Shown: positions 8,089-31,875 of the stretch, one piece after another
Layout of the letters: each line of letters starts with the position of its first letter
How positions within the stretch are numbered: position 1 is the first letter of the stretch
Source: Aphrocallistes beatrix
Lineage: Eukaryota > Porifera > Hexactinellida > Sceptrulophora > Aphrocallistidae
Direction: 5' to 3'
Length of the DNA: 64,000 nucleotides
Assembly (NCBI GenBank): GCA_963281255.1
Contig: OY725502.1
Span: forward strand, 1,240,001 to 1,304,000
Position numbers and translations under genes: made by a program
The notes under the pieces: model-generated
Told to the model about the DNA's origin: nothing
The model's input: only the letters and a program-made list of their open reading frames with translations
Databases searched by the model: none

Positions 8089-9966
8089 CTAGTCCACTTC
8101 ATCGATAGTACTCTCCCCATTAGGTGTACCGCCGGACTGGTGCAGTTTCATCATGACAGGTTGGCACACCTTCTCTAGCTCCTTCTGTTGGAATTCCAAC
8201 TCATCCTTGGTAGCAGATTGGTTGGAGTCGAGCCAGGTAAGAGTACCCCTCACTTTGTCCAGGACTCTGTTCTTTTCCGCCTCTGTCAGCTTCCCATTCA
8301 CCTTCTCGTCCTCGATCGAGCTCTTGGCTTGGAAGGCGTAGCTCTCCAAAGCGTTTTTAGTCTGAATGCGCTCTCTGTGTGCTTCATCTTCAGCTCTGAA
8401 CCTATCAGCTTCATTCACCATTCGCTGAATCTCGCTCTCAGAGAGTCGGTCCTTTCCATTCTTGATCGTGATCTTCTCCGTCTTGTTCGTACTCTTGTCC
8501 ACTGCGCTCACGTTCATGATTCCGTTCGCGTCCAGGTCAAAGTTCACTTCAATCTGTGGCACACCTCTGGGTGCAGGTGGAATCCCGGTGAGCTCAAACT
8601 TGCCCAACAGGTTGTTGTCCTTGGTCATAGCTCGCTCCCCCTCGAACACTTGGATGGTGACGGCTGTCTGGTTGTCCGCATACGTGGTGAATGTGTTGTG
8701 CTGGCTGATGGGGATGGCGGAGTTACGCTTGATAAGGTCGGTCATGACGCCACCGGCCGTCTCGATACCGAGTGAGAGGGGAGTCACGTCGATGAGGAGG
8801 AGGTCACGCACCGTCTCGGACTTGTCTCCCTTCAGGATGGCCGCTTGTACGGCAGCCCCGTAGGCTACCGCCTCGTCGGGATTGATACTGCGGTTCAGTT
8901 CTTTCCCGTTGAAGAAGTCCTGGAGCAGCTTCTGGATCTTAGGAATGCGAGTGGAGCCCCCTACCAGTACGACTTCGTGGATCTCTCCTTTGCCTAGCCC
9001 GGCGTCCCTGAGTGCCTTCTCGACCGGCGCCAGCGTCCCTCTGAACAGGTCCTGATTCAGCTCCTCGAAGCGTGCGCGGGTGATGCTGGTGTAGAAGTCA
9101 CTGCCTTGGAAGAGAGAGTCGATCTCGATGTTGGCCTGAGCGCTGTGAGAAAGAGTCCGCTTGGAACGTTCGCAAGCCGTACGAAGGCGACGCAGGGCGC
9201 GCTTGTTCGTGGAGAGATCTTTGTTGTGTTTGCGTTTGAATTCCTGAACGAAATGGTCCACCATCCGATTGTCGAAGTCTTCTCCTCCCAAGTGAGTGTC
9301 GCCGGCTGTGCTTTTCACTTGGAAGAGCCCATCCTCGATTGCCAGCACTGAGACATCAAAAGTTCCACCCCCCAGGTCGAAGATGAGTACATTTCTCTCA
9401 TGCCCGTCCCTCTTCTTGTCCAGGCCGTAGGCGATAGCTGCGGCGGTGGGTTCATTCACGATCCTCAACACGTTCAGTCCGGAAATGATGCCCGCGTCCT
9501 TCGTAGCTTGTCGCTGCGCATCGTTGAAGTAGGCGGGAACTGTGACAACTGCGTCCGAGACGGTCTGGCCGAGGTAGGCCTCAGCGGTCTCTTTCATCTT
9601 CAGCAGGACCATGCTGGAGATCTCCTCTGCGTAGAAGCTCTTCTTCTCGCATTTGTACTCCACCTGGATCTTGGGCCGACCCCCGTCGTTGGTAACGGTG
9701 AAGGGCCAGTGTTTCATGTCGGACTGTACCAAAGGGTCTTCGTAGCGACGTCCGATCAGGCGCTTTGCGTCGAAAACAGTGTTAGAAGGATTCAAAGCGA
9801 CCTGATTCTTCGCTGCGTCTCCAATCAGCCGCTCTGTCTCGCTGAATGCTACGTAGCTGGGAGTTGTGCGGTTTCCTTGGTCGTTGGCGATTATTTCCAC
9901 TTTTCCATGCTGGAATACGCCCACACACGAGTATGTGGTACCGAGATCAATACCGATAGCTGTCAT
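8089..9966 (-). CDS. Cytosolic heat shock protein 70, heat-inducible type
   Basis: Intronless ATP-dependent chaperone of about 625 residues. It shows all three HSP70 signatures: [15 protein letters not shown] at the N-terminus, [12 protein letters not shown], and the [13 protein letters not shown] segment, plus [15 protein letters not shown]. The C-terminus ends in DEVD, the EEVD-type tail that binds TPR co-chaperones, marking it as cytosolic/nuclear and not BiP or mitochondrial. The open frame extends 30 codons further upstream to 10,056, but that Met lies upstream of the TATA box at about 10,035, and homology starts at MTAIGIDLG, so I place the start at 9,966. Lack of introns and a strong heat-shock element upstream fit an inducible gene. 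Confidence 0.96.
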
Positions 9967-10819: not shown

Positions 10820-13800
10820 TTAATCAGTTTGTACAGGTCTGGCGTCCGTCTCATCTCTACTTATGAGGATCTTGAGAAATGGCGCCACGTTACAGCCCAT
10901 TTCGGAACTGGCTTGGTCGCTGGAATGAAATTTAGACAGCTGATTGAACATCTGTAGGTGCTCCCCCACACTACACAGAAAGAGAGTGGGATTGAATGAG
11001 ATTTTACAATTATTTTAAAATATGATTGGGAACTGTTTAATAATATACTCGCGAGAATAACAGTGAATGTCTATTGCTGAATTCCAACAATGTTATGCTT
11101 CACTAGGATGCTAATTTTCTTCTTCAGCTCTGGCGACGCAACTCTAAAAGTGTCTTGAGCCCTCTCGGGATTATCCCGCATATCCATAATCATTCTCCGG
11201 ATTCTCTCGTCTCGCATTACCTCCTTCACTTCATCTCTATTCAGAATCTCCTGCATCTTCTTGTCCTCCTCATCGAGTTGGTCTGCCCCTTCCACGTCTC
11301 CCACGTATCCACCTTCCCCAGCCAGACCGGTGAAGTGATGCCCCAGCAGGGAGCACATCTCTTGCAAGAACACTCGGAACTCAGGAGCGTCTCCGAACTC
11401 ACGAATCGCTTGTTTGGGGTTCTGAGTGAAGCGAGTCAGCACTTGGGAGAAGTCTGGGTGTTCGAATGCCTGCGCGAGTAGAGGGTTTCCCTGCACCTTA
11501 TCGAGCAGCTCATCTGTCACCCAGTTCTCCGGCAGCAGTGCTGTAGGCGCAGACTCCTGGACCGACTCATCGACTGATTTCTTCATCTCGCTCAGTTGGA
11601 AAGAAGCGCCTTGCTTAGAAGGGTCGCTCGTGATGACAGGATCATCGCGAGACTTGCTAGCTCCGACTTCAGAAGTAGACTCGGGTGCTTTCTTCATAAG
11701 AAACCCCTTCTTCAATCCTCCAAATGTTGTCTTCTTAGGCGTTTCCTCTTTCAAAACTTGAGGAATAGTACCAGCATCAGGTGCTACAGGTGGAGTCGTT
11801 TTTCGGTTGAGGTGCGCCAACTTATCCAGGACTGAGGAAAAGTCTTCCAGTGGAGGGAGATCATCTGGCTCTGCCATTGTATATTGACAATTTCAGATAA
11901 AGTCATTGCCATACAGTGACAGCACGGAAGAAATAAAGATCTGATGCGTAAGGGTGTATTAGAAAGATTCATAAAAACCGATTCTTTTGAAAATTTGGAT
12001 CTTAAGAATAGTGTTTATATATAATAGTCTAGTGCAGGGCTGTCCAACTATATTTACTTCGGGCCGCAACTGCTTCATACCATTTAGTGGCGGGCCGCAA
12101 TACAGGGGCGTGCACTCGGGATGGGTATGGATAGAGGCATTTTGGACGCAACGTGGGCCGCACAAAGCAAGGCCGCGGGCCGCCTGTTGGACAGCGCTGG
12201 TCTAGTGCGATAGGATGGAATTATGAAAAACATGTTTTGTGTTGCAGTATTACCTGAATTTGTCAGTTTTCAATCTGTGTAGCTCTTGCGAATAATTCGT
12301 CAGAACTCTGGCCTGGAGGAGAACATCTCGAATGAACTTACTTAAGTTATTTGTGAACTACGTAACCCATGCACTCACCTGATTCATCAAATATGCCAGG
12401 GTGGTGAAGAGGTAGTAGTGGAGGTAATCCTAGGAGAAAGCAGATTGGGTATAAAGGAGTTAATTTCACAAAATAGTTAGTTCATTTTGCATCTGCAAAA
12501 TGTCCAACTTGTTTGTAACTTAGGAAGTTACGCACATTCTGCGTGTACTGCTGCAGAACAGCTAAGGCAGCTTTCCACTCAGAGACAGCAGCTAGGACCA
12601 TGATACACTTGTAGCCAGAATTCACCGTTTTACTATGAAAGAGATACGCACATAAAGCTTGTAGGAATGGAATGAATAGCAAATATTATAATTTAATTGC
12701 CTGTGGGTTAGCACTTTGTAGTAGGTGATAGCTCTCTGTGTGGTGAGCTCCTGCGTACAGCTGAGCAGGTTGGACATGTTAGGAAGACTGTCCAGAACTC
12801 GCTGGTACAGCTGGGTGTGGCTGCTCTTACGGACGAAGGCAGGTTCCTTTGAATAGTCTACATCCAGTAGATGCTGGCATTGAGTGATGAATGGAATCTG
12901 AGGATAGAAATAATAAAATAAATCATTTACACATTCCTAAGATACAACACAGATTACTACAATCTTAAATGAGACATTTTAGAACATAACACATTGGTCA
13001 GCTTACGAGATAGTCAGGATCACATTTGAACACCAATCTGCATATTGTTTCGAACAGAGATGGTAATATTTCACTATCCTAAAATAGCTCAAGTAAAATT
13101 ACGAATAAATATTGAATCTCAAATGAATCCCACCACCATAGCATCATTCGTGCTGCATTTAATAATCTCTCACTGAAATTATACTTATGAGTATAACAGT
13201 CGCATTAAAGCTTCTTCACACTCATAGTAAGCGTCAGAACTCTCGACTTCTTATTGAATTGCGCCCCTGCCTCTTCAGGAATGACGTAATAGGGCAGACA
13301 CAGATCCAAATGGTATCTGTTAGGCTGAGCAGTTAGCACTATCTTATCTTCGCCTACACTCAGCTGCATGTGCTTGCTGCTCTTGACGAGGGGGAGCTTC
13401 GTCTCCATTACGATGTGATCAGGATGCCCTTTTGGGGGGTCCTTAGTCAGAGTGTACTCAGGCTCAGGTGCGGCCACCTGTGCCGGCTCATTTGAGAGAG
13501 TCGGCTCTTCAGTGATGAGAGGTGAGTACGAGTTTCCACTCTCACTCTCTTCCATCTCAATCCTCGGTTTGCTGTGAATTCGAATCCTGTGCTCGGCGGG
13601 TGTTCCCATATACTTGATATGCTGCATGCGGCGCATCTCTCTATTCAGATCCACCTCGTATTTGGCTTCTACTCCCTCTACAATCAGCAGCAGCAGGAAC
13701 TCCATCATGACGTCTCGTGTCTGCGCCTCTGTGTGGAGAGAGGGGTGCACGACGATGTCGTACACGGTACAGGCGTTCTGAGCGCGGTCTAGCTCGGTCC

Positions 13801-16800
13801 TCGGCTCTCCCAGACTCAGAGGAACGCGGAACTGAGACGCGTCCTGCTTCTTTATGATCTCTAACAGCTCTTCATCAGTGACGTCACGTGGTGCCTTCAT
13901 CTCCTCAGAGGTGCAGACGTTAATGAATATCTTCTCGCCTTTATCGACTGATTTGGTTTTCAAGCAGAAAGCAGGAGTAGGCCGGATATTGACACTTGGA
14001 ATAGTGTCCGCATACTGAGGTGCCTCGCTAGGAGGTGGAGCTGTTAGCAGCTGATTGACCAGGTTCTCTGGAATGTTGTCCATTGAAAAGAGCAGATTTA
14101 AGCTAATGAGTTTTCAATCACATGAAGTTGTTACCCTGTTCAAGAAAATCCCTGTCTGTACATACTGAAATGCTGAATTGCAGAAATACGGCCAGTGTCG
14201 CTTTTCAATATACAACCTTATTCTCTCGATTTAACACAAATCCTATATATTCTTGATTTCGGACGAGAGGCTTAGCTCTCAATAATCAATAACAAAAATA
14301 GTTGGTTATGAATCCTGATTGCATAAAAATTTACGGAAAATATTGTGTTATACAGTATTAAAGAATTGTTCCAATTACAAGTTTGGGATATGTAACAACA
14401 CATAATTGCAAGACATGTTAATATACCCAATATGCTACTACTACCATAGCAACGTATCAGCAGTATTAGTATGTACCTTCATAGCTGACTGCAATGGCTG
14501 TGAAGAGTGGAACAGTTTCTTCCAGTGGATCTTTCGATCTGGATTTGTCTTATACTCTATTAGAATAACGAAGCGTAATTTTTTACTATTGAGTGAAAAT
14601 GCCAGCCTGGATCCCTCCCCCTCAAGAACAAAAATGCCAAATTTCACTACTTTTTTGACTATTTTGAACCGAAAAAAGGCACACTTTAGGTTTGCTATAT
14701 AACAACGGGTTTAACGCGGTACTCATAGTTGTGCAGCTAGATCTATCTATATGCGATGAAAATAATCTGTTTTCACAAAAGTATCCCTCTCCCTTACAAA
14801 ATCTGTCCCCTAGACTCAATATTCATCAAATAGTCTCAATAATAATCTATGCCCCAAAAACCCTATATCAACTGCTGAACGCTAGTCTCAAGTATAGTTT
14901 AATGTCATGTCACGTCACAACAAATCGTTCTCTCTCAATCGATTGTCTTACCTTGGGAAAAGTACAACTTGACAACTTCAAGTACTTCTTCTGGAGACAC
15001 AAGACAGAGATACTCAAAATTGTAGGAATAGCCTAGATATTAATTGAATTAAGTGGCAATTCTGTCACGTCTATCTCATACAAGTGGCTCACTTAAAATT
15101 ACCCGAAAAACTTGGAGAAATGGAGTCAGTAACAACCGAGTTTATATGATCCAGCACTTCCTGCTTAACACAGCTGCCGGGATAGGCGCAGGAAGAAGCC
15201 GTTATTGACTCTCTTGCACGGTTTGCAGTGAAGATATCATTCTGTTGATAGCTCAGAGATTGAAAGGCTGATAGTTTGTTGCTGAAATCTTCTCTGTAGT
15301 AGTAGGGAGTAAACGCACTGTTCAGATTTCCTTTACTCTCCAGGGAAGTTTGATAGTGGGACAACTCTATATGCAGTGCTGTCTGGAACTTAGGAAACTG
15401 TTGGAGAAAAAAGAGTAATCTTAATTTGAAAAAATCCGAAGCTTTTAATTCAAATTTGAGTTTGAGCTACCTTTGAGAATAAATTGAGAAGTATGGTCGG
15501 ATTTTCAATGAGAGCGTGATTCAGTTTGGAAAATAGAGACCCCAACTCTGCTCGCTCCACTTCACCAATGCAATCCGGTTTCTAAACAGATATCCATTCG
15601 AGTTAAGAAGGAATAAGGAATAAAGAGTGTCATATGCGTGGTGTACACACCTGCTTAATCACCATGTGTGCTGCCTCCAGGATGGACTTGATCTGCAGAG
15701 ACGGGGTGTTCCATGCGTGGATGAGTGAGGGGGTGTGTATGAGGCGGGATAATCTGGTCTCTTCTGGGACAGAGGTGTGAATGTGAGAGATCTGATCTCT
15801 GAGCGGAAAATTCTAAAGCAGAGAACAGTAAACATTTCAAAATCTGTAACTGACACTCCAATCTTGAAAGTAGACTCATAGACGCAATTAGTTCAAATAC
15901 AATTGGATTGATCATTATGTAATAAATAAAATATAAAAGTATTCAGTGAAGTTAGTAAAATTTTGAGTGATGGAGTTGCGATTAGTGTGGCTGGTCTTGT
16001 TTGAAGCTCGACTTCCTCCAGAGCATCTTCTGCCTCTCTAGCAGTCCTTTCCCGTCTGCCCCTGCCTGGACATCGTAGAACTGGTTCGCGTAGGCAGTGT
16101 CGTTAGGAGAGGAAGCAGACGGGAGGTCAGTCTCTAGCGTATGTTCATTATCCGTCAGCTGGGAGTACTTCCGGTAGAAGGGGGAGGTCTTGGCGGCGAT
16201 GGCGTGACTCGATGCACTCTCATCCACCGGTTCCGGTGCGTAGAGGTCCTCGTCCAGGGGCTCAGGCCTTCGGGGTGGGATGGCAGTGCTCTTGTGGAGT
16301 CTCCTATTCTTGCTCTTCGTGTTCCAGTACCTCTGAACCTTGGTGACGGAGATGTGCATGATTACCACACAGACAGGCACCACTACGCACCCCAACAACA
16401 GCCCAGCCCCGACTGCCCCCCATAGGATGTAGAACTTGATCGTGTTCATGTGCTCGAACTCCGTCATGTTACAGCAATGCGGACCGAACCCCAGATCACA
16501 GCACACGGTAGCATCTAGCCTGTCGGGATCGAAGGGGCAGTACCCTCCGTCTGGTACTCCGGGGCACCTCTGGTCCGCGATGACAAGGGGGAGGGACATG
16601 AGGGACAGCAATAGGAGAGGGAGTGATCGAATTAGGAAGTGCATTATACTATACGTTGTATGGTGTTGATAACACAATGTGACAGATTCTAGATTGAATG
16701 AGAATTCAAATTCGTGATCACATCTCTTATTGTGTAATTAAGACCAGAAGTTCCCAACCTGGGGTCCCCATTAGTGGTCCACAGGATTCGAAATTTTGTA

Positions 16801-19800
16801 TTACGGTTAAAAGGAGGGTCCACAGAATATAGGAAAATTGTTATTGGGGTCCACAGCCAAAAAAAAGGTTGAAAACTGGTGTCTTAGACAATACATTATT
16901 AACTTTATGCCTTAAAGAGAACGATTAATCGAGACTCGAGATAGATATCATCAATGTTCTTGTGGGGTATAGTGGGTATCATTAACTAATTTGACAGGAA
17001 AAGACGAGTATTTCTGAGAAGGTTCGATAAATACAATTCAATTAAAAGCGTCATCATACAAGTACGTACATAATAAATCATTCCGGATGCTTGGTATTAC
17101 ATAGATCTGATTAGTAAGGCCTCAGCTGGCATGCTCTCTATCCACACCTGCGGATTTGAGTTGATTCAGTGTGTCGGTAAATATGTCCCTGGACGCGTCT
17201 AGCATTTCCCTGTACAGCCGCGTGTCCTCCTTCCTGGACTGAGTGACAGAGGAGAGTCTATGCTGCAGGGCCAGGATCTCATCCTGCGCTATCTCCACCC
17301 GCTGCAGCAAACTCTCGCTGGACAGCTGGTCCTCTAGCCCCCCCGGAGCGTCTGATACCCTCACTGATCTGGCAGTACCTGTCTGCGCACACCTGGAGAT
17401 CTCCTTCTCCATGAGTGCGCTGGACTGCTTCATCTGTCTCAGCTGGGCTGCCTGAGAGCTCGACGCCTCTACTGCCTCTTCCAACCTCTCTTGCAAGAGC
17501 CCGACTAGCTCTCTCAGCTTGTCTCGCTCCACACTGGCACTCTGCAACTGTGCGTTGAGACTCGCCGTGTCCAAAGCCTCGCTGTGATTCAGGGGTTTGC
17601 AGGTGGAGACACCTGGTGCGCTGGTAGCATGTCTCCCACGTGTACGCCTAGCAGGGGCACTCCCCTCCGTACACATCTCTCTGTGCGGGTAGATAGAGGG
17701 CAAGGTGAGGTGAGACTCTCGACTGCTCAGTTCTTGAGAGAGATTCTCTACTTCCACATCCTTCTTGTTCAACTCCTGCTTCAGGCCCTCTATCGTAGCC
17801 TGGTACTTGGACACAGCGGTAGGGGGGGCAGAGAGCTTCGAAATCGTCTCCTTCATGTTTTTCTCGCGAGACAGTGTCTCAGTGAGGTCCTTCCTCAGCT
17901 GTTTCACTTCCTGAGAGAGGGTTTGGTTCCTCGCTTGCAGTGCGTTACACTTGTGCTTGGATTCAGTGTGTGATCTCCTCAACTCCTCCAGCTCCTCCTG
18001 TGTCCGCTCGGTAGCTTCTCTCCGACTGCTCTCCATCTTCTTAATCAGATCCCGCTGTCTATCTCCCTGACAGGAGCTGTCTAGCTGTCTTGGAACAGAG
18101 GTAGAAGTTCTGCTAGTGGCAATGGACTGTATAGAGTTGTGAGAATCAAATCGTACTGCTGTATTGATGCCATCCATTTCTGTGTCCAGGTGCGAACACC
18201 TGTTACCATCCTCTTGTACCTGCATTGACTGTATTTGAGAACGAAGTTCATTTATTTTCTTTTTGAGTAGTTTGATTTGCTGCGCGCGTCCTTTCCACGA
18301 AACGTCCGAGTTGATGATCTGGGAGAGCGAATACTTGTCCGCGTCTGCCCCCAGCTCCTGGCTCAGAGCTTTCTGAGTCAATCTCAGTTCCTGTCGCAAG
18401 GACTGTGAGGCGTTCTTTCCTTCCATTACGCGGGCCTTCAGCTCTGCCACTTCTTCTCTCAGCGCGTCTAACTTCTTCTGATGGGAGGGGGAGGTCTCCT
18501 CGGGGGGGTTGCTCTCCAGCTCGGCTCTCACCTCCTCCAGCTCCCGCTCCCTCAGCTTCACCAGCTCCTGGAGGTCCAGTTGGCCCGTCTCCAGCCTCTT
18601 CACCTTGCTCTGCTCCGAGTACAGCTCCGACTGCAGCTCTCGCACCCGCCGACTCAGCTCCACGATGCGACCAGCGATGTTCACGCCTGCGATGCCTGCC
18701 CCCATGGCCTGCAGCGCTTCCTGCGACTTCCGGAACTCGCGGTCTTTATCCTCCACCCCGCGCTTCAGCTGGCTGTTCTCGGTCTGTAGCCTGGCCACGA
18801 GCCCCTGGTAGTAGGCCAGCTCCTTCTCACTCACGCCGGATTCCTCCCCGCCAGCCTCGCTACCCGGCTGTGCGGAAGAGAAGGTTCGTAGCATCAGGTT
18901 ATCCTCCGTGCTGGATTGCGGTTGTTCACAAGGTTCTGGAACATCCTGTACGGGTGTGGAGGCAGACTTTGACTTGGTCTGTTTCCTGTTCTGCTGGATA
19001 GCCTTGAGTCTCTCTCTCAAACGGAGGGAGTGGCTGGCTTGTTCTGACTCAGGAGAAGACATGCAGATTCGTTGATAAAGTAAGTGCTAGGGTTGCTAGG
19101 TTCAGTAGAATAATGTGATTGTGTAAGGAACAATTTAAGTCTAGGACTAAAGTACTACTAAATGATTGTTCCAGCTGTTGTACTCTGTTAAGATGTTCAT
19201 ATAGTAATATAGTCACAAATAAATTATCTGGAAAATACAGTGAACATTCCCTACCTCTGGAAGATAGATGTTGTGTCCGGTCGAGATCAAGAATTTATCG
19301 TAGTTGTGAAAGTGGTAGGAATGGAGAGAGATTGGTTCTTCTAACTCTTCGGACTGGACACAAACCCCTTGGGTTGGTTCAAATATTCTAAGAAACAAAA
19401 TATAAACAAAATCAAATGCCATGATGCAAGTGTAGTATTATTACCTCAAACGGTTCCCATGACACAGTATAATGACCTGCTGGTACGGCATTATGTGTAG
19501 AGAACCATCAGAAATATCTTGATTATAATTGAGAGAACAAATTCTCTCTTTACTCAGAAAATTTCTCTCATCCACTGACAGGTTCCATAAGACTGAATTT
19601 GCATCCCAGATGTAGAAAGAATTGAGCCCAGTCCCGACTGATACTGCGACCAGCTTAACCCGCTCATTCTATGGAATATGAGAGTTAACAAAATTGATTT
19701 ATTAAATATTATAAAATAAATTAGAACACGACCTTATTTTCTGAGACAGAATAACGAAGCAAAAAGGATTTGAAGGAGAGATCCCTTCTCCAAGGTTGGA

Positions 19801-22800
19801 GATTGGTCAAATGTAAATTAGAAAACTCGAAAACCTTGAATAGTTTCTCATTTATAGAATACAAGAATAAAACTCCAGGATACAAGTTACTCCTAGAAAG
19901 ATGGAATGTGATCATTGCTAGCTTTATATCGTTACTCGTTGAATGCGCGAACTAACTTGGGTATGAATGCTACCACAGTTCCACTGATTGTGATCTGAAC
20001 CAGGGGACAGTTGGCAGCTAGCAGCAGACTTCTCTCCTCCTCACATAGCCTCGCATGTATGCTACAGCTGGAACCTCCTCCCTCACCTCCCTTCCTACTC
20101 TCAGACCAAACCACTGTGCTGATGTCAGCAGACACAGCTACACCTGCCACTTCGTTATCTTGACAAGATAGGAGGCTGGTACAGGACTCTATGTGAGGTC
20201 TCCCTCTCCTCACGCTGAATGTAGACAGCTGCCCATCTTGCTGAACCTGTTAATAGAACGAGTTCCCAATTTAACCGATGTAAGATGTATTAAGTCCTAT
20301 GTATGGGGAATATTTTGTTCCGGGAGATTTGTCCCAATTAAGCGAAGTCAACTGTATTTCAAATCAATTACGTGTTTCGAGACAGTGCCAATAAAACAAA
20401 AGATAAAATATGGCAATTCTAAATTCAAATTAATTAATTAATCCATCGAAACTCATACAATTAAGATTATACACACGTAGATATGCTACAACCAATATCC
20501 TACTTACAGAAAATAACAGCAAGAATATTACATCAGTGAAACAGGAAATAGTATACTCTATCGGGCCTGTGAATACAAACTTCCGTGCATAGCATTAGAG
20601 CATGGAGCATCATGCCAGTCACTTCTTACCCTCTCTACAGCTGTTGTTGTTATTGTTCCTGTGGTGCGTGCAAGTCTCATGCAGGACCCTAGACGCCATG
20701 TGGTCTATCAGGTCGTACTCCGTCCTCATCTCGCTCGCGCAGACAGCAGAGCCAGCGGAAGACGCGTGAGGCGCATCCTCATGGTTCAGAGTGATATAGT
20801 GCAGTTTCTTCTGAATGCCACTGGTGCTGTCCTTAGCGCTGAGCGCCTGGAGGTAGGCCGGCGCGTGGCTGGGTTGGATGAGGAAGTCCTGGTTCATGTA
20901 GTCCGGACTGTGGAACACGGGCTGAGAGTGGGTGGAGTTCAAACTGCTGCGCTTCGAGTCAGACTGACTGATGACGTCATCGGACAGAGATCCCGGGTGT
21001 GACATGACCTCGTACACCGCATTAGATTCAGAGATCTGGTTGGACCCGATTCTCGAGAGGAAGTCCGTCACTCTGGGACTGATCTGAGTCGACATATTCC
21101 GCAGCTGCTGCTCCTTGGCTGAGACGCCGCTGATGTAGGAGAAGGGGCAGTTCCTGGGGAGGGGGGTGGTGGACTGCATCTTCATGTAGGGAGCTTCCGG
21201 GCTGCATTCTGTGCCCTGCACCTCAGGCCAAGTTTTGGCTCTGAATCGAGATAAGCTCGGATCCGAAGTGGTCTTTGTGTCCGCGTGCTCGCCAGAGGAG
21301 CCAGACAGCTCCAGGTGGTCGTACAGATCCCTGCGCTGAGAGAAGTCCACCTGCTGGTTGTTGGATACCAGCTTGTAGAGGTTGTACTGCTGCTCTGAGA
21401 AGAGGTCAACTCGGGGACGGTTGGAAGGGAGGGTCTGGTAGAGAGGAGGTCCAATGCTGATGTTGGACGGGGTCTGGTACAGGGGGGCAGTGGAAGGGAG
21501 GGGGGAGTCCAGGATAGCATTAGCTAACGAGTCCCTCTTATAGAAAGTGGAATTCCCCACCTTGAAGTAGGACTTGATTTTAGACGGCCCCGACTTCTTC
21601 CTACGGAACCGGAACTTCTTCCTGTCCAGTGTGGCAGTCCCCTCGCAGATGCTGGACATGTCGCTGCTGATGGAGACGCTGGTCTCCTGGGTCAGGACGG
21701 AGGAGCAAGAGGTGTAAGAGCTTCTTTCAGTGAGAGCGGAACTTCGCGCGGAGGGGAGAACACTAAGATCTGAGAAGAATACCCCTTCGCTACTCAGCCG
21801 CTTACACTCGTGCTCTGTGAAGTCAGACGCATTCTGACTTCCGTCGGTCAGAGAGTGGTGCCTCCTGACGTCATAGTTCTGGTAGAGCGGCTCTTGCAGA
21901 CTGGGCAGCGGGGGAAGCGAGTTGTGAGCAAACTCTCGCTTGGAAGCGCTCCCTTGGCACCTGAACACCCCGCTACAGTACTGGTTCCAAGAGAGATTCC
22001 TCTCCATGCGTTTGTTCCCGCCACTGCCCATGATGCTGGATAGACTGGCGTAGATGCTCTTCGCCAGCACTGCACTCTCCACATACATCCAGAGGTAGCC
22101 TTCTCCTGTCACGGACTTGCGGCCTGCCTCAATAAATATCAGCTGCTGCCAGTTCCCACAGCGACGTAGGAATTGAATGTCATATGCCAGCAGCTGGCCA
22201 CCTGTTTGCATGTCCAAGAATAGAACCACGTTCTTCCGCAGAGCTAGGATCACGTTCGGTTGTTCGAATTTTGAACTCTCACCAAGTTCCCTCCGAATGA
22301 TGTAGACAGGACAAGCGTCTTCGAACTGTCCTCTCTCCACGATACTCAGATCGAAAGGACTCCTGCAGTCGTAGAGAGGAATCATACTGATTGGAATCTT
22401 CAGCTCGGGGAGGCGGACTAAAAATTCTAAATCGCACACCCAATCATCGAAGTTCTCCTTCACATCCAACTCGAAGTAAACGTCATGAGTCCGCTCTTTG
22501 TCCTTAATCAGCTCCAGCTTGATGTGGTAGGGGATGAGGGAGGGGGACTTGAGAGGGGAGTTCGTTTCGATCTTGTGCACGGCTGCGACTAACCGCATGG
22601 GGATAACCTTGTTCGGTGTGCTCTTCTTCGTGGCTTGTTTCTCGTCATCGAAATACTCAATCTGAGCAAGTGTCGTCCTCCCGGAGGCACATTTCAAACG
22701 CAAATACTTACGTTTCATGTTTCTGCCCACTATCTTACCAACTTTCACATAGCCCTCTCGAATAATAGTCTTCTCCATCACCCAGTATCAAATGTCAACT

Positions 22801-25800
22801 GACAATTACAATATGGTCAGGTTGAATAATATTATATTCCAGTGGACTGTAACTGTTAATAAATATCAAAGACATATTGGCATAGGAACGAATCTGAGAT
22901 ACGCTAGCTTCCGAAAGAATGTGCTATTAAGTCGAGATAAACTAGACCATTCTAAGATTTCCCAATTCAGTCCCAATCGGAGAATCTGTAGTTGTACGAA
23001 GTCCAGTAGCGAGGGTGAGTGATTGAAATGCCGAGAAACCTGTGAGATTCTGATATTAGGAGTCTGTCATTAGTTAGATTCTTGCCCTGTACACTGGCTG
23101 CTATGAGGTTTTATGACATAAAGAAACGATCGATGTGTCATTCAGGTTTTAAGGTTTGATTGCAACTTGCAAGCACAATTACAGTGAAAAGTATGAGATA
23201 ATATAATTATCCTACAAATTTCCTGTCGAGTCATACGCAGGGCCGGCGCCACCAGTCCGGTTGGTCCGGTTTTAACCGGACCACTTTTAGACAAGTTTAA
23301 TACAATTACTATGTAAAATAGTCCAGTTCGTGTGGTTTAACCGGACCACTTTTCAATAGTTGTATCTTTTAACCGGACCACTCTAAAATCCATGGCACCG
23401 GCTATGATACGGTGTACTTTGAATGTCATTAATTAACAAGAAAAGAAGGATACAGTGAAAGAACAATGTCCATTTTGATATTTTAAGATTCGTTTCTCTT
23501 CATTTAATCAATAGAAGGGTACTATCTTTATTTTTCAAAATTCTGATGTTTTCTAATATAGCCTCATCAATAAAATAGGACATACGTAGCTACAAAACTA
23601 CCATACACAATAGTACAATAGCAAAACTGGAGTTGGGCAGATTTTTCCAAGCAATTTTCTTTACAATGGAAGAGTTTCTATTTACAACTAGGGATTCACA
23701 CGAAATTTCGCTCACTCAGCTGCGCTCGCTCGGAATTGGTTTCTCTCCTTTTGTGAACCTGACTTATCGAATATTTGCATTAATTACTTTTAACTAAATG
23801 TTTGAATTCATGAATAAATTAGAAATATAACTATTTGAATGGAAAATATTGGGATGTAGTGTACATAGGGACGTAGTTGATAGGGGGATTGGGTTGACCG
23901 CCTGGACTTAAATGAGGTTTAAAATTGCTATCCTAGAGATTTTGTGTACTTTTGACAAATTGTATCAATTGGTGATTTGGTGGATCGATTGTAATTGACT
24001 ACTGTAAGGGGCTGCATACACTTGTCAGAACTGTGGCGGCAGAAGCAATGTTTTATTCGGGGAGCTGAGAACAGGGCGCAGCGCGAGTGATTATGTGAGG
24101 GTGGTGGAAAATATTTTACCTAATTTTACACTAGAGTTCTGATTTCAGACAAATAAAAATAGTTTTTATTAATTATAACTGCCGGGCAACTTATTTGTTC
24201 TATTTGTAACACGTTGATGCAGTTTCTTACTTTTAATTGAAAACTTCAGTTGAATTTACGTATTGTTGTCTTTCTATTCATAATCAGAATGTCACGGGCA
24301 TGGCAGAGGATAACACAGGCCTCACACTCTCTACAAGGCGAGCTGAGTAAGGAGATGAGTAGTGTGCGTAAGTTCGCCAGCAGTTGGGTAGGCAAGCGAG
24401 CCCCACCCGACCCAGCGACACAAGAGGAGATCTCCGAGGTAGCGGCCGTGTACTCCCCGCGAGTGGGGTACGAAGTCGTGTCTTGGAACTCTGCTAACCT
24501 GGCAGAGATGAAGAAGACCGCGGTCAAGACAGCCGGAGAAGGTGACAAGGTTGACAGAGAGATCGCCAGCATGACGCGACAAGTGAAGAAGACATGGAAG
24601 GCTTACACACGACTGCAAAGAGAGCTAGGGGCCGTGGCAGACATATTGCAGGGGGTGCAGCAGATACAGAGAGACGTGTCCAGCCTATCAGAGCAGGTGG
24701 ACACCATCAACTACCGCCTCACCGAACTGGACATTCTGAACTCTCAGGTACAGTTGTCCCGAGCCAAGATGGAGGAACTGCGTCGGTTCTCTAGCTACCG
24801 ACAGAACAGACAGGGAGAGCTGGTGCAGATGAACAGCAAGCTCTCTCTCATGAGAGAAACGCAGAGAGACAATAACGAACGACAGAAGTTGGAGAGTCTA
24901 GCTTTGAAAAAACAATTCTTGCAAGATTCGTTCCAACAACAGATGTCCCAGTATAAAGAGTACGGGACGTTGAGACCTGGGGCTGTGGACCGGAAGTTCC
25001 AAGGCTCCTCTGAGTACGACAAGCAGCTGGGAGAGGTGGAGATCGAACCAGATCCTATAAGGAACCAGGACCTGACTAACTTCCTCTCGAACGTAACCCA
25101 GCCAGAGATACTCCAGGATATCGAGACTGCATCTCCTTCCAAGGAGCTCGCAAACGAACAGCTGATGAAATCCCTGTTGGATCAGAAGATAGAGGGCAAG
25201 AAGATAGGAGATGTAGAGGACCCCTCCCCTCCTTCCTCAGGCCTAGATCCAGTGGAGAAGGAGCTGTAGTGGAGTGTTTAGTGATACAATGATGCGATTG
25301 TATATATAAGTAATAATATTGTTAATTCATGAGAATATTTCCACCTGTTCCTGGTTTATCCGAGATTTATAAGAAAGCGATCCGACAGAAAATCCTATTT
25401 GATCCTTATTAGAAATGGTTTGTTAAATAGATAGAGCCCAGCTGCCAGGCCGAATAAGTACGTATCACCAAAAGTAATGATAAACTAATGTTTCAGAAAT
25501 TTTGTGTAATTCTGAGAGGACTGGTATATTCAGTCGTTGGTTGTGATAATAATATTGTGTTGCTGCACTGGATTGGGTCTAGAAAATATTGACTATGAGA
25601 TTATCTTTTTTACGTTGTCGATAATAAACCTGTTTCAGCTAATCAAATATTTCTCTAATTTTATTTACCTAGCTTGGATATGTGCATACTATTTATTCTA
25701 GTAAGAACTACGCACCGATTATAATACTTCGTATTGCTGTGTGTGATTCTTTTCAAATGATACTGTCACGAAAATTTTGGTCCTGCAATGGACCATTTTT

Positions 25801-26964
25801 CCATGGAATATTGGTCCGGGGGACCATTTTTATCGCAATTCTGAGAATATATGTATCTACGTCCCCTACACCGGGATCAAAATTTTAATATCTACAGTTA
25901 AACAATTTCACAAAACCCTGGATTGTCTTGGATAAATCCTATTCAAAGGTACCCTTAGTAGATGGTATATGGTTATGAACAGTGAAGCATCAACTCACCA
26001 GCAGGCCTGTGTTGAGGTGGGTGGAGAGGGAGATGACTGGAGAGGAGGTAGGGAGGCGTAGTGTAGCATCTTCTAGACTCGTGTCTGGATGAGATCTGCT
26101 GAGAATAGCGACTCTATCCCTTTCTCTGTTAATAAATTTACAGCATTAATAGTATCCTATACGTATATAAATAGTCTGATAAATCCTGTGCTAAACTACT
26201 GAAATGGCGTGGAGGAGGCTAATGGCGGCACAGAGAGTCCTATATTTAACTCGGACCTTAACCCAGTTCCATCCTCCCCCGCACATCCTCCCACCTCACT
26301 CCGTGCCTCTGCATTGTCATAGACGACTCAGCTCAACAGAGAAAACAAGCAACGGTGAGGACACTGGCATAAGCGCTGTAACACAGCGAATTCGAGAATT
26401 CATTAGCTCGGACAAAGTGATCGTGTTCATGAAGGGAGTGCCGGAGAGACCGATGTGCGGATTCAGTCGCGCGGTGGTCCAGATCCTACAGCTGCACGGG
26501 GTCCAGTTCTCCGCATTCAACGTGCTCGATGACGAGGAGGTGAGGGCGGGGATCAAGGAGCACACTGGGTGGCCTACGATACCACAGGTGTTCTTCAATG
26601 GAGAACTGATAGGAGGCATGGACATCCTGCTGCAGATGCACCAGAATAAAGAGATCCTGACAGAGTTGGAGAAGATAGGCATTACCTCGTCACTAGCTTC
26701 TGATGCTGACTGACTGTTTATCGTAGTTTTAAATACTAATTAATGATACAGTATTCTCTCGATCACTTATTGGGATTGTTAATTAATTAATTATCAGACT
26801 TACTTGTTAGAACTTGAGCTGAAAATGACAGCTAGATAATCCTCTCCTCCTGTCAGATAGTCAAAAGAGTATTGGTTGCCTCCTGTCGGGCTAGCTAGGA
26901 GATATCTCGCAGTTTCATTATCTTCCCAGTGAGGACACTCTGTTAGTCTGAGTAGGTTGAACAT
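10820..26964 (-). CDS. HPS6: BLOC-2 subunit HPS6 homologue, 19 coding exons, host of seven nested genes
   Basis: Coding segments (minus strand): 26964-26804, 26125-25999, 22985-22943, 20566-20508, 20246-19936, 19892-19733, 19668-19445, 19387-19255, 15812-15651, 15581-15471, 15397-15103, 14990-14952, 14556-14477, 13078-13007, 12897-12701, 12632-12536, 12429-12379, 12312-12254, 10970-10820. They total 2,532 nt, 843 codons plus stop, with matching phase at each junction. Recalled human HPS6 (775 aa) aligns along the whole length, for example STVVWSESR with RLVWCEER, IHWKKLF with DVWKKVL, and [19 protein letters not shown] with FELLCQCLCQLEPRWLPPF. The N-terminal part should form a beta-propeller and the rest alpha-helical. 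BLOC-2 directs cargo to lysosome-related organelles. The weakest pieces are exon 3 (poor GTTTAT donor) and a GC donor at 12,700. Human HPS6 is intronless as I recall, so this structure is unusual. Confidence 0.85.
11071..11877 (-). CDS. STI1-like domain protein, possible co-chaperone; nested in last HPS6 intron
   Basis: Single-exon protein of 268 residues. It has an acidic start ([13 protein letters not shown]), a basic [11 protein letters not shown] motif near residue 55, a low-complexity linker, then two helical blocks rich in Asn-Pro and Asp-Pro: [18 protein letters not shown] at about 130-165 and [22 protein letters not shown] near 220-245. These resemble the STI1/heat-shock-chaperonin-binding repeats of Hop, Hip and ubiquilin. 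No TPR, UBL or UBA domain is visible. I first considered PEX19, but the PEX19 core and CaaX tail are absent. No specific orthologue is recognised, so any co-chaperone function is inference from the repeat type. It lies on the same strand as HPS6, between its exons at 12,254 and 10,970. Confidence 0.7.
   Translation of the reverse strand: MAEPDDLPPLEDFSSVLDKLAHLNRKTTPPVAPDAGTIPQVLKEETPKKTTFGGLKKGFLMKKAPESTSEVGASKSRDDPVITSDPSKQGASFQLSEMKKSVDESVQESAPTALLPENWVTDELLDKVQGNPLLAQAFEHPDFSQVLTRFTQNPKQAIREFGDAPEFRVFLQEMCSLLGHHFTGLAGEGGYVGDVEGADQLDEEDKKMQEILNRDEVKEVMRDERIRRMIMDMRDNPERAQDTFRVASPELKKKISILVKHNIVGIQQ
12035..12199. mobile_element. hAT-type MITE with 8-bp target duplication
   Basis: A 165-bp element with terminal repeats CAGGGCTGTCCAAC and GTTGGACAGCGCTG. 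It is flanked by the identical 8-bp sequence GTCTAGTG at 12,027-12,034 and 12,200-12,207. CAG ends and an 8-bp duplication are typical of hAT elements. It has no coding capacity and sits in the last HPS6 intron, upstream of the nested STI1-like gene. Confidence 0.88.
13205..14083 (-). CDS. PIH1D1: PIH1 domain-containing protein 1, R2TP subunit; nested in HPS6 intron
   Basis: Single exon, 292 residues (human about 290). The PIH1 N-domain is recognisable as [45 protein letters not shown] and a second helix [15 protein letters not shown]. The linker is acidic, and the C-terminal CS-like domain contains SVGEDKIVL and [14 protein letters not shown]1D1 is the adaptor of the HSP90 co-chaperone complex R2TP (RUVBL1/2, RPAP3, PIH1D1), which binds phosphorylated TELO2-type clients and helps assemble snoRNPs, PIKKs and RNA polymerase. 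It sits on the HPS6 strand between HPS6 exons 14,477 and 13,078. The order of domains and SLGEP motif favour PIH1D1 over PIH1D2 or kintoun. Confidence 0.9.
   Translation of the reverse strand: MDNIPENLVNQLLTAPPPSEAPQYADTIPSVNIRPTPAFCLKTKSVDKGEKIFINVCTSEEMKAPRDVTDEELLEIIKKQDASQFRVPLSLGEPRTELDRAQNACTVYDIVVHPSLHTEAQTRDVMMEFLLLLIVEGVEAKYEVDLNREMRRMQHIKYMGTPAEHRIRIHSKPRIEMEESESGNSYSPLITEEPTLSNEPAQVAAPEPEYTLTKDPPKGHPDHIVMETKLPLVKSSKHMQLSVGEDKIVLTAQPNRYHLDLCLPYYVIPEEAGAQFNKKSRVLTLTMSVKKL
15982..16677 (-). CDS. Small single-pass membrane protein, Cys-rich ectodomain (Shisa/VOPP1-like); nested
   Basis: Single exon, 231 residues. A signal peptide is best started at the second Met (residue 12: [17 protein letters not shown]). 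A short ectodomain has seven cysteines ([24 protein letters not shown]) and an N-glycosylation site (NMT). One transmembrane segment (about 80-106) follows, then a basic stop-transfer region and a cytoplasmic tail of about 115 residues. The tail has several tyrosines in adaptor-like settings (LYAPEP, YRKYSQL, YANQF with a Grb2-type YxN). The layout is like Shisa, WBP1 or VOPP1 proteins, but I do not recognise an orthologue. It lies in the large HPS6 intron between exons 19,255 and 15,812. Confidence 0.72.
   Translation of the reverse strand: MCYQHHTTYSIMHFLIRSLPLLLLSLMSLPLVIADQRCPGVPDGGYCPFDPDRLDATVCCDLGFGPHCCNMTEFEHMNTIKFYILWGAVGAGLLLGCVVVPVCVVIMHISVTKVQRYWNTKSKNRRLHKSTAIPPRRPEPLDEDLYAPEPVDESASSHAIAAKTSPFYRKYSQLTDNEHTLETDLPSASSPNDTAYANQFYDVQAGADGKGLLERQKMLWRKSSFKQDQPH
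16745..16878. mobile_element. Probable hAT-like MITE remnant
   Basis: Ends CAGAAGTTCCCAACCT and AGGTTGAAAACTG are partly complementary in the style of hAT terminal repeats, and the interior has repeated GGGTCCACAG blocks. A clean 8-bp target duplication is not visible, so this may be a decayed copy. Confidence 0.4.
17122..19062 (-). CDS. CCDC13: CCDC13-like coiled-coil protein; nested in HPS6 intron
   Basis: Intronless 646-residue protein, almost entirely coiled coil from residue 75 on (heptad-rich, with long Glu/Lys/Leu/Gln runs). A conserved-looking segment reads [17 protein letters not shown], then [16 protein letters not shown]; this resembles the central region of CCDC13 (WRGRAQQI). Human CCDC13 is about 715 residues and is a centriolar-satellite protein needed for primary cilium formation and genome stability. 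The assignment rests on recall of that segment and on the overall architecture, so it is good but not certain; coiled coils produce misleading similarity. It shares the large HPS6 intron (19,254-15,813) with the Shisa-like gene. Confidence 0.72.
   Translation of the reverse strand: MSSPESEQASHSLRLRERLKAIQQNRKQTKSKSASTPVQDVPEPCEQPQSSTEDNLMLRTFSSAQPGSEAGGEESGVSEKELAYYQGLVARLQTENSQLKRGVEDKDREFRKSQEALQAMGAGIAGVNIAGRIVELSRRVRELQSELYSEQSKVKRLETGQLDLQELVKLRERELEEVRAELESNPPEETSPSHQKKLDALREEVAELKARVMEGKNASQSLRQELRLTQKALSQELGADADKYSLSQIINSDVSWKGRAQQIKLLKKKINELRSQIQSMQVQEDGNRCSHLDTEMDGINTAVRFDSHNSIQSIATSRTSTSVPRQLDSSCQGDRQRDLIKKMESSRREATERTQEELEELRRSHTESKHKCNALQARNQTLSQEVKQLRKDLTETLSREKNMKETISKLSAPPTAVSKYQATIEGLKQELNKKDVEVENLSQELSSRESHLTLPSIYPHREMCTEGSAPARRTRGRHATSAPGVSTCKPLNHSEALDTASLNAQLQSASVERDKLRELVGLLQERLEEAVEASSSQAAQLRQMKQSSALMEKEISRCAQTGTARSVRVSDAPGGLEDQLSSESLLQRVEIAQDEILALQHRLSSVTQSRKEDTRLYREMLDASRDIFTDTLNQLKSAGVDREHAS
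20619..22781 (-). CDS. IRS/DOK-family docking adaptor, PH plus PTB domains; nested in HPS6 intron
   Basis: Single exon, 720 residues. A PH domain spans about residues 5-125 ([43 protein letters not shown]), followed by an IRS-type PTB domain at about 150-255 ([18 protein letters not shown]). The long disordered tail holds many tyrosines in SH2-docking contexts: YMKM (PI3-kinase p85 type), YMNQ (Grb2 type), repeated PLYQT, YDHLEL, YITLN and YDLI. PH followed directly by PTB with a YMxM site is the insulin-receptor-substrate layout, and the PH wording also resembles IRS1. It would relay receptor-kinase signals at the plasma membrane. It sits between HPS6 exons 22,943 and 20,566 on the same strand. 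Confidence 0.83.
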   Translation of the reverse strand: MMEKTIIREGYVKVGKIVGRNMKRKYLRLKCASGRTTLAQIEYFDDEKQATKKSTPNKVIPMRLVAAVHKIETNSPLKSPSLIPYHIKLELIKDKERTHDVYFELDVKENFDDWVCDLEFLVRLPELKIPISMIPLYDCRSPFDLSIVERGQFEDACPVYIIRRELGESSKFEQPNVILALRKNVVLFLDMQTGGQLLAYDIQFLRRCGNWQQLIFIEAGRKSVTGEGYLWMYVESAVLAKSIYASLSSIMGSGGNKRMERNLSWNQYCSGVFRCQGSASKREFAHNSLPPLPSLQEPLYQNYDVRRHHSLTDGSQNASDFTEHECKRLSSEGVFFSDLSVLPSARSSALTERSSYTSCSSVLTQETSVSISSDMSSICEGTATLDRKKFRFRRKKSGPSKIKSYFKVGNSTFYKRDSLANAILDSPLPSTAPLYQTPSNISIGPPLYQTLPSNRPRVDLFSEQQYNLYKLVSNNQQVDFSQRRDLYDHLELSGSSGEHADTKTTSDPSLSRFRAKTWPEVQGTECSPEAPYMKMQSTTPLPRNCPFSYISGVSAKEQQLRNMSTQISPRVTDFLSRIGSNQISESNAVYEVMSHPGSLSDDVISQSDSKRSSLNSTHSQPVFHSPDYMNQDFLIQPSHAPAYLQALSAKDSTSGIQKKLHYITLNHEDAPHASSAGSAVCASEMRTEYDLIDHMASRVLHETCTHHRNNNNNSCREGKK
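23240..23405. mobile_element. Probable MITE with GGCCGGCGCCACC-type ends
   Basis: A block rich in repeated CCGGACCACT units begins GGGCCGGCGCCACCAG and ends CATGGCACCGGCTATG, an imperfect inverted pair. It has no coding capacity and lies inside an HPS6 intron. Confidence 0.45.
24289..25269 (+). CDS. DTNBP1: Dysbindin (BLOC-1 subunit), antisense and nested in an HPS6 intron
   Basis: Intronless plus-strand gene; from the Met at 24,289 it encodes 326 residues (human about 351). A short N-terminal region with [17 protein letters not shown] is followed by a long coiled coil (about 85-225) that ends with [23 protein letters not shown], matching dysbindin's [23 protein letters not shown], and by a short DLTNFLSN motif like the human DALDVFLNS. 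The tail is acidic. Dysbindin is one of the eight BLOC-1 subunits and works in endosome-to-lysosome-related-organelle sorting, upstream of BLOC-2. An upstream in-frame Met at 24,250 adds a hydrophobic stretch that I do not think is translated. The gene lies between HPS6 exons 25,999 and 22,985, on the opposite strand. Confidence 0.85.
   Translation: MSRAWQRITQASHSLQGELSKEMSSVRKFASSWVGKRAPPDPATQEEISEVAAVYSPRVGYEVVSWNSANLAEMKKTAVKTAGEGDKVDREIASMTRQVKKTWKAYTRLQRELGAVADILQGVQQIQRDVSSLSEQVDTINYRLTELDILNSQVQLSRAKMEELRRFSSYRQNRQGELVQMNSKLSLMRETQRDNNERQKLESLALKKQFLQDSFQQQMSQYKEYGTLRPGAVDRKFQGSSEYDKQLGEVEIEPDPIRNQDLTNFLSNVTQPEILQDIETASPSKELANEQLMKSLLDQKIEGKKIGDVEDPSPPSSGLDPVEKEL
25270..25998. other. 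HPS6 intron beyond dysbindin, no further gene
   Basis: AT-rich; holds the dysbindin 3' region and a short run of repeated GGACCATTTTT-type words at about 25,780-25,830. No exon is supported. Confidence 0.35.
26204..26713 (+). CDS. GLRX5: Mitochondrial monothiol glutaredoxin 5, antisense in first HPS6 intron
   Basis: Intronless, 169 residues. The N-terminal 45 residues are Arg/His/Pro-rich without acids, fitting a mitochondrial presequence. The glutaredoxin fold shows [12 protein letters not shown] with the single-cysteine CGFS active site (residues 85-88), WPTIPQVF (glutathione contact) and [13 protein letters not shown]5 carries a glutathione-bound [2Fe-2S] cluster and hands it from the ISCU scaffold to later iron-sulfur assembly steps. 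It is transcribed opposite to HPS6, between HPS6 exons 1 (26,804) and 2 (26,125). A truncated copy exists at 33,541-33,947. Confidence 0.94.
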
Positions 26965-27925
26965 GAAAGACTCGATTACGATTAAAAATTGTTTCTAATT
27001 CGCTGTGGAATAGAACGGCACAGATTATTAATTAATTAATGGATGTTCAATATACAAGCCCTCTATCAAGATAGGTTAGATAACGCCAGTCGATTCAAAA
27101 GTAGGAAATTGTGAAAAAAGCACCCATTGAAATAGGAAGTTATTTAGAGATGTTATCTACCATATGATTAATCATTTTGAGCCTAGGCGCACAAAGGGCG
27201 CCTCTGGCGGACACTCGCGCGCTTGTACTATATAATATAGGATAATCGTATACAAATGTTTGAAACTTAATAATGATAAAAAGTGATAGAACAAAACTTT
27301 CAACGAATAAATGATCATCATATACATCTTGACACCTTTTATTAAAACTATATATACAGTCAGGGTCGCTGGAGAATCAATAGAATTTAACATATAGACT
27401 CAAGGTTGGATACACAGAAACTATAAACTAGTACAGTCAGGGTCGCTTATTGTGAACCACCAGGGGACAAAAAAATCTGTTCATAATAGAGATACTTCAT
27501 ATTAAGCGAACTTGATTCAATACAAATCCTATCTAAAAAATGAAATTGGGACCAGGAGGTTAGTTCATAATAAACGAATGTTGATAATAAGTGACCCTGA
27601 CTGTATTTATGTAGTAAGTGTAACGAAAAAACTAGTTACTTGATTACTTAACAAGTGGCTTCCCTTAGTTACATGAATGAAAAGAGAGGTGTATTTGCAA
27701 ATACAGCTCAAATACAAAAGACATTTCAAATGCAAATACAGATATACCGACAAAGTAAATTTAAAAATCAAATACAAATACAAATACAAATACGTATTTG
27801 ATAAGCTATCCCAGTTTGCCTCACCCTTATCAAGCAGTCGTCATCTAGATATGATATTCCCCAAATGTGCCGGGATACCAAGTGAGTATAGTCTGGCTCA
27901 GTTATTGCTCAAATATGTCCCACTG
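26965..27925. other. Repeat-rich spacer between HPS6 and the OAT duplication
   Basis: Holds the upstream region of HPS6, a GC-rich patch at 27,178-27,225, the TA-flanked MITE above, and an AT-rich run of AAATACAAAT words at about 27,690-27,800. A piece around 27,040-27,140 is repeated in direct orientation at about 32,342-32,450. No gene is seen. Confidence 0.5.
27434..27603. mobile_element. pogo/Tigger-like MITE
   Basis: Ends CAGTCAGGGTCGCTTATT and AATAAGTGACCCTGACTG are near-perfect inverted repeats flanked by TA on both sides, the target duplication of Tc1/mariner-pogo elements. About 170 bp with no coding capacity. A second partial end with the same CAGTCAGGGTCGCT word lies at about 27,357-27,370. 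Confidence 0.8.
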
Positions 27926-28082
27926 AGAGAATTCTAACAGTTCCATAACTTTGCATCTCAATAACTCCAATATAATTTCAATGTTGAAATTTTGCTCACC
28001 GTTCCACGCATTATATAACCTATGTACAATTTATCCTTGTAATGTATGTAACGCTGTGATTTTGCCTCGTGTTAGCTGAGCG

Positions 28083-31000: not shown

Positions 31001-31506
31001 GCGGCAAGCTACTAACTTGTCATTACGAGTCAGTGCGTCCTGACGTACTGGTACTAGGCAAGGCTCTGTCGGGTGGATTGATGCCGATATCAGCTGTATT
31101 AGCGGACGACCACTTGATGTCCATGATGAAGTCAGGAACGCATGGATCCACCTTTGGAGGTAATCCCCTCGCCTCAGCTGTGGCTATTGCCTCTCTGAAG
31201 GCAATAGTAGAAGAGAAGATGCCTGAGAACTCTTTCAAGATGGGTGAGATATTCCGCAGAGAAATTTGTAAGATGCGGCCTGGCGTCGTAGCGGGTGTAC
31301 GAGGCAAAGGACTGATGAATGCTGTGCTGCTGAATCCCAGCGGTGGCGTTAAGGCAGGGAGACTGATGGATAAGCTGCGAGACAACGGAATAATCTGCAA
31401 GAACCGCTTTGACTACTGGTTCAGAATGACGCCCCCGCTAATCATCACTGAGGACCAGATGATGGATGCTCTGAAGCTGATCTCACGAGCTATAGACCAG
31501 TCTTAG
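28083..31506 (+). CDS. OAT: Ornithine aminotransferase, copy A
   Basis: Three exons, 28083-28571, 30540-30874 and 30999-31506, give 443 residues in frame (human 439). PLP-dependent class III enzyme of the mitochondrial matrix; it converts ornithine and 2-oxoglutarate to glutamate semialdehyde and glutamate. Seen here: a basic presequence, [33 protein letters not shown], the Schiff-base lysine of LGKALSGG (residue 296) and [10 protein letters not shown]. The Glu (VEPIQGE) and Arg (YWFRMTPP) that pair in the human active site are present. Odd points: the residue matching human Tyr85 is Ser (residue 89), and NGGVEA replaces the usual NSG/NTG before the PLP-phosphate loop. The reading frame is intact, so it may be functional or recently relaxed. 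Confidence 0.92.
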
Positions 31507-31650
31507 AATAGCTGTGTCCCCTTCAATAACATTTCTGAAGCATTTGTTCTATTATAGCACTAGAATTGCTATTTTATTGTTCTTAGTTAGCTTTTTAGTT
31601 AGTATTCAATCTTTCAGACTGGTGATGGTAGAAACTTGTCATATATGAAT

Positions 31651-31875
31651 GTCGGAAATCTCGCAATGGAATTTTCGTCCCTCGGAAATTTCATCCCTGG
31701 AATTTTCAGTTCTTAACTATTTCTCAATCAAAAGCCCCAATTTTCACTCCTTATTTTCAACATACTCCACTCCTGCCCCTTCCATATTAGTGCCCGATTA
31801 TTTTAATTTCTAATGAGATAAAATTCCCATGAGAAAAATTCTGCGATGAAATGTTCATAGGCGAGATTTCCGCAT
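31651..31875. mobile_element. MITE-like unit with CGGAAATCTCGC ends
   Basis: Starts CGGAAATCTCGCAATGG and ends with the complement TAGGCGAGATTTCCG. Related copies lie at about 32,630-32,845 and 34,715-34,940, both in the opposite orientation to this one. No coding capacity. Confidence 0.55.

Follow-up and report, generated by a model that had tools for sequence, protein, structure and literature searches.

An HPS6-like gene occupies positions 26,964-10,820 on the minus strand of the window, the whole 64,000-nt stretch of Aphrocallistes beatrix DNA that was analysed. HPS6 acts in the building of cell organelles. The locus is probably an HPS6 gene of about 17 exons, with five of its 16 introns carrying seven single-exon guest genes. 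Reading frames, splice signals, HPS6 homology flanking three guests and a profile gain past a fourth were seen in the sequence itself; the 5' end of the host, its transcription, separate promoters and the history of the locus are what we infer. GC content across the window was 33-54% in 2-kb steps, and the DNA was animal-like. All seven long ORFs were found inside introns, as the first-pass annotation had described them. The set of nested genes is real and unusually crowded, and the kind of layout is already known; nested genes have been published genome-wide for several sponges and a ctenophore (PMC10282587 and PMC8527503, in the text available from each).

The earlier annotation had joined nineteen minus-strand segments into a protein of 843 residues. 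When these exons were rebuilt, the 19 segments (2565 nt) gave one frame that was open throughout, although the product was 854 aa long and segments 3 and 4 proved doubtful. Seventeen of the 18 introns were GT-AG and one was GC-AG. The five junctions singled out for checking (26,804/26,125, 22,943/20,566, 19,255/15,812, 14,477/13,078 and 12,254/10,970) were all present in the sequence. Omission of segments 3 and 4, with 25,999 joined to 20,246, yielded a 17-exon model encoding 802 residues. The segments are as follows.

26804..26964, minus strand: HPS6 exon 1, with ATG at 26964 and donor CAA/GTAAGT
25999..26125, minus strand: HPS6 exon 2, with donor CTG/GTGAGT
22943..23039, minus strand: segment 3 of the earlier annotation, a doubtful exon with the weak donor GTTTAT
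20508..20566, minus strand: segment 4 of the earlier annotation, doubtful in HPS6, which may serve an IRS read-through
20246-19957, 19892-19733, 19668-19445 and 19387-19255, minus strand: HPS6 exons of the propeller half, placed by alignment to human HPS6
15812-15651, 15581-15471, 15397-15103, 14990-14952 and 14556-14477, minus strand: HPS6 exons, the last of which adds to the HPS6_C score
13078-13007, 12897-12701, 12632-12536, 12429-12379 and 12312-12254, minus strand: HPS6 exons matching HPS6_C
10820..10970, minus strand: last HPS6 exon, with stop codon TAA, which adds to the HPS6_C score

The identification of the host as HPS6 was borne out by a Pfam match to HPS6_C (PF20468; E 1.7e-9) at residues 631-815 of the spliced product. 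The match was partial, covering profile positions 154-330 of 387, and scored 37.5 bits for the whole protein and up to 41.5 bits for exons 13-19 against a cut-off of 27. Exon numbers 13, 14-18 and 19 follow the 19-segment model (14556-14477, 13078-12254 and 10970-10820, respectively). Exons 14-18 by themselves scored 29.3 bits. Addition of exon 19, which lies past the STI1-like guest, raised the score to 34.2 bits (+4.9) and moved the end of the match from 312 to 330, whereas three shuffled versions of exon 19 gave 28.9, 29.1 and 29.3 bits, i.e. no gain. Further addition of exon 13, past PIH1D1, brought the score to 41.5 bits (+7.3); the shuffle control applied to exon 19 only.

Pairwise comparisons were carried out with a sequence of 775 aa that we take to be human HPS6 and that Pfam validated as full-length HPS6. 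Local alignment of segments 4-8 gave a z of 4.7, equalled by 2 of 300 shuffles, and spanned human residues 92-255, which correspond to segments 5-6 (20,246-19,733). In global alignment, exons 1-8 matched human residues 1-400 with a z of 3.0 versus 0.6 for residues 401-775. The comparison with exons 14-18 gave a z of 6.0, and no shuffle did as well, either among 300 or among 1000 in a further test. Similarity of the five exons from 15812 to 14477 to the human protein was not significant (78 of 300 shuffles equalled it). The same held for exon 13 (equalled by 409 of 1000 shuffles locally and 333 globally) and exon 19 (137 and 206 of 1000, respectively). The N-terminal half gave no Pfam match to the HPS6 N-terminal domain (PF15702) at E 10. 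A PDB search with the host protein returned only a chance match at E 0.37, and one with the presumed human protein returned none at E 0.01.

The guest genes, numbered by the introns of the 17-exon model, are listed here.

26204..26713, plus strand: GLRX5, a single ORF antisense to the host in intron 1
24289..25269, plus strand: dysbindin (DTNBP1), a single ORF antisense to the host in intron 2
20619..22778, minus strand: IRS-like PH-PTB adaptor, a single ORF on the host strand in intron 2
17122..19062, minus strand: coiled-coil protein labelled CCDC13-like, a single ORF of 646 aa on the host strand in intron 6
15982..16644, minus strand: putative membrane Cys-rich protein labelled Shisa-like, a single ORF of 220 aa on the host strand in intron 6
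13205..14083, minus strand: PIH1D1, a single ORF on the host strand in intron 11
11071..11877, minus strand: STI1-domain protein, a single ORF on the host strand in intron 16

Two significant HPS6 blocks on one strand enclose CCDC13-like, Shisa-like and PIH1D1, and we therefore conclude that these three genes are nested. Only these three guests, not four, have significant HPS6 blocks on both sides. Nesting of the STI1-like gene follows from the HPS6_C profile gain contributed by the last exon, and we regard it as fairly good. The IRS-like gene, dysbindin and GLRX5 are nested only if the first two HPS6 exons are right, so that the claim that HPS6 hosts all seven genes holds firmly for three, fairly for the STI1-like gene and plausibly for the others through the model of exons 1 and 2.

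Five of the seven guest labels given by the first-pass annotation were upheld. Pfam supported PIH1D1 (PIH1 3e-37 and PIH1_CS 7.1e-16), GLRX5 (Glutaredoxin 2.7e-21, with TIGR00365 above its cut-off), the IRS-like protein (PTB 5.5e-9, with IRS-1 in the PDB at 1.2e-11 and a weak PH match of 0.019 ahead of the PTB domain) and the STI1-like protein (PF17830 2.8e-9, in two stretches). Dysbindin was supported by alignment to a sequence that we assume to be human DTNBP1; the score was 158, with shuffles at 43 (sd 7) and block shuffles at 49 (sd 8.6), and none of 500 of either kind reached it. A Pfam search of this ORF gave no dysbindin match, and its PDB matches were set aside as weak coiled-coil similarity only. 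The other two labels were not confirmed. The CCDC13-like protein had generic coiled-coil matches only and no specific family match, and the Shisa-like protein had no significant family match, although a signal peptide and a membrane segment were apparent by eye. A relative of PIH1D1 was sought in viral contigs and none was found. Beside the STI1-like gene, at 12029-12205, is a short element with 20-nt inverted ends that are 85% complementary; it resembles the relic of a small DNA transposon.

Dysbindin belongs to BLOC-1 and HPS6 to BLOC-2 (PMC12086961, in the text available), and a BLOC-1 gene may thus sit antisense within a BLOC-2 gene. This arrangement is notable, but with a single case to go by, chance is the simplest explanation.

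The 5' end of the host was the least certain part of the model. Exons 1 and 2 have good splice sites, are in phase and form an ATG exon followed by an internal exon. Eight such pairs occur in the window, counting both strands with thresholds chosen after this pair had been seen, and the other seven are never wholly noncoding. The similarity of segments 1-3 to human HPS6 was not significant; for exons 1 and 2, p was 0.83-0.90, and 129-190 of 1000 context shuffles equalled the observed global score. Codon-frame tests did not clearly favour these two exons, the per-exon codon bias being too weak to decide. The end of segment 2 and the start of segment 5 are both in phase 0, and segment 2 can therefore splice directly to segment 5. 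Exons 1 and 2 then place 96 residues ahead of the junction, and the presumed human sequence has 94 ahead of VWESG.

We consider it improbable that the 19-exon, 854-aa model with segments 3 and 4 included is correct. It is open and in phase all through, and of two codon tests one, but not the other, favoured the coding frame of segment 4. However, among 850 GTs the segment 3 donor, GTTTAT, ranked at the 18th percentile, and several alternative bridging exons had better splice scores (best sum 0.3, for one exon). These bridges, for which the stretch from exon 2 to segment 4 was searched apart from the dysbindin and IRS-like ORFs, were themselves rejected because they lacked coding support. The retained exon 19892-19733 has a weak donor too (GTCGTG). 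Leaving out segments 3 and 4 raised the global score against human HPS6, and the 17-exon model outscored the 19-exon model in all three settings, ranking top among five variants with a modest fit. The runner-up was an out-of-phase control, indicating that length drives much of the global score. Our choice of the 17-exon model is accordingly a preference and not proof.

Segment 4 can also be reached from the IRS-like gene, through a short candidate intron.

20567..20629, minus strand: candidate 63-nt intron joining the IRS-like ORF to segment 4 in frame

Its donor, AGG/GTAAGA, lies near the IRS-like stop and ranked at the 98.7th percentile; an exon using it would end at 20,630, and the last base of the IRS-like stop codon follows 11 nt later. 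Joining the IRS-like ORF, segment 4 and the rest of HPS6 gave 1442 residues with a terminal stop only. The donor at 20,630 may give an IRS-HPS6 read-through, or segment 4 may be part of the IRS-like gene. A stronger version, in which the HPS6 transcript starts in the IRS-like gene or is shared with it, so that a 1442-residue IRS-HPS6 protein is made regularly or as read-through, seems unlikely to us. On this reading the host would have the IRS-like gene as a 5' exon and would enclose neither dysbindin nor GLRX5. The strength of the donor, an intron length typical for the gene and a frame kept to the HPS6 stop argue for such a transcript, as does the finding that 6 of 371 minus-strand acceptor-like AGs of similar strength had a donor this strong at a distance of 50-114 nt, with the donor cut-off set at the observed score. 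Against it, the IRS-like ORF possesses a stop of its own and both a PH and a PTB region, the fused product would by alignment be without about the first 75 HPS6 residues, and exons 1 and 2 would be left unexplained. Somewhat less likely again is that the IRS-like gene, as a same-strand guest, captured the body of HPS6, with the 1442-residue protein made besides normal HPS6; if true, gene nesting would be a path to domain fusion. Human tandem nested genes can cause host exonization, intron retention and cryptic polyadenylation (PMC3192792, as its available text states), and a possible IRS read-through fits this behaviour. Were splicing to take place at 20,630 and not at 20,508 (20630-20400, minus strand), the IRS-like protein would acquire a hydrophobic tail ahead of a stop, as judged by eye.

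Returning to the 17-exon HPS6 gene, its introns fell into two size classes. The five that bear guests were 678-5752 bp long, and the 11 guest-free introns were 57-395 bp (median 69), so that each HPS6 intron longer than 400 bp contains a nested gene. Minimal and guest-bearing introns are thus sharply divided within one gene. Two histories are conceivable, namely entry of guests into small introns or shrinkage of long introns that had no gene to protect them; we favour shrinkage. For comparison, Oopsacas minuta has 1.59 introns per gene, with a mean length of 341 bp (PMC10280926, in the text available).

The first-pass annotation had noted that the nested genes appear intronless, and all seven were indeed single uninterrupted ORFs. 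Its suggestion that they are retrocopies inserted into a locus that tolerates insertions found no specific support, and we hold it to be on the unlikely side, if the least so of the alternatives weighed here. The seven uninterrupted ORFs are what it would predict, and retrotransposition is named as a possible primary route for new single-exon genes that break synteny in the glass sponge paper (PMC10282587, in its available text). However, single-exon frames also occur away from HPS6 in the window (HSP70, an FtsJ-type methyltransferase, a MORN protein, CCDC22 and RPS18), and the absence of introns is therefore not peculiar to this locus. Three of these genes were placed as follows.

42411-44309: CCDC22, outside HPS6, a single uninterrupted frame
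45409-45864: RPS18, outside HPS6, a single uninterrupted frame
8089-9966: HSP70, outside HPS6, a single uninterrupted frame

The window holds intron-bearing genes as well, namely an SH2 kinase and an aminotransferase.

Signals for transcript processing were uninformative, both for polyadenylation and for trans-splicing. The host transcript had been expected to pass five internal polyadenylation signals. These signals were not borne out, in that a canonical hexamer was found within 300 nt of only two of the five same-strand guests (29 nt past the STI1 stop and 41 nt past the PIH1D1 stop) and not of the other three; the chance of such a hexamer per 300 nt of noncoding DNA is 0.5. Release of the same-strand guests by spliced-leader trans-splicing of the host pre-mRNA, as from an operon within introns, is highly improbable. 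Leader trans-splicing is reported for a ctenophore (PMC8527503) and, at 4% of long reads, for the glass sponge A. vastus (PMC10282587), as the available parts of these papers state. However, acceptor-like sites ahead of nine single-exon genes scored at chance level, with a median of 0.18 versus 0.27 for random noncoding DNA (n = 1068) on a crude score, and Rfam gave no match of any kind within the window. A tRNA scan of the window found none.

We propose that the host is a normal protein-coding HPS6 gene of about 17 exons, for a subunit of BLOC-2, to which HPS3 and HPS5 also belong, and that the genome around it is that of a non-vertebrate animal, compact and rich in single-exon genes. Five of the 16 introns of the host would be occupied by seven single-exon guests, of which two are antisense and five share its strand. 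Each guest is probably transcribed from its own promoter, and transcription of the HPS6 pre-mRNA would pass through the guests, which would leave as spliced-out intron. Guest-free introns would be near minimal, and guest-bearing introns would stay long since a guest cannot be deleted. The locus offers a dense, well-delimited test case for the coexistence of same-strand genes in one animal host transcript, and it illustrates how readily nested genes distort exon models.

Several duplications were found near the locus. A direct duplication of 754 bp has left a copy of 26307-27054 at 33541-34291, on the same strand and 7 kb upstream. This copy includes HPS6 exon 1, its ATG, frame and donor intact, together with the 3' part of GLRX5, and could provide an alternative first exon. 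Exon 1 differs from its copy by one substitution in 161, and the adjoining GLRX5 part by four in 407; an argument for selection on exon 1 was dropped because the neighbouring GLRX5 part is about equally similar. A class-III aminotransferase gene at 27926-32336 has an inverted copy at 39681-34271 (88-92% identical) and a more distant third at 40446-40985; these are a true duplication or unmerged haplotypes. Several repeat-rich stretches with long low-complexity ORFs on both strands lie between 47700 and 53000.

The host shares with human HPS6 the HPS6_C match, the local propeller alignment and a similar length (802 aa versus 775 in the presumed human sequence). The two differ in structure. Human HPS6 has one exon (PMC10615116, in the text available), in agreement with the earlier remark that vertebrate HPS6 is intronless, and the host has about 17. 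Human tandem nested genes also place same-strand guests in introns, as here; human nested genes are about 63% antisense and 41% single-exon, compared with two of seven antisense and seven of seven single ORFs at this locus (PMC3192792, in the parts available). Among other animals, a total of 2357 nested genes, many of them parallel to the host, has been counted in the ctenophore Hormiphora californensis, where 1654 genes serve as hosts; a single host that holds four of them is mentioned in a figure legend, and doubly nested genes occur there too (PMC8527503, in its available text). A further comparison is the glass sponge Aphrocallistes vastus, for which the available text of PMC10282587 describes a compact genome of 19,578 genes with 12,409 single-exon transcripts and 2432 nested genes, including glassin, a single-exon gene nested within another gene; HPS6 as a term is not mentioned in the main text of that paper. 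In the same table, nested genes exceed those of A. vastus in Amphimedon (3358) and Sycon (5032). The dense nesting and single-exon genes of the window resemble the glass sponge report, yet a demosponge and a calcareous sponge nest more (PMC10282587, in the same available text).
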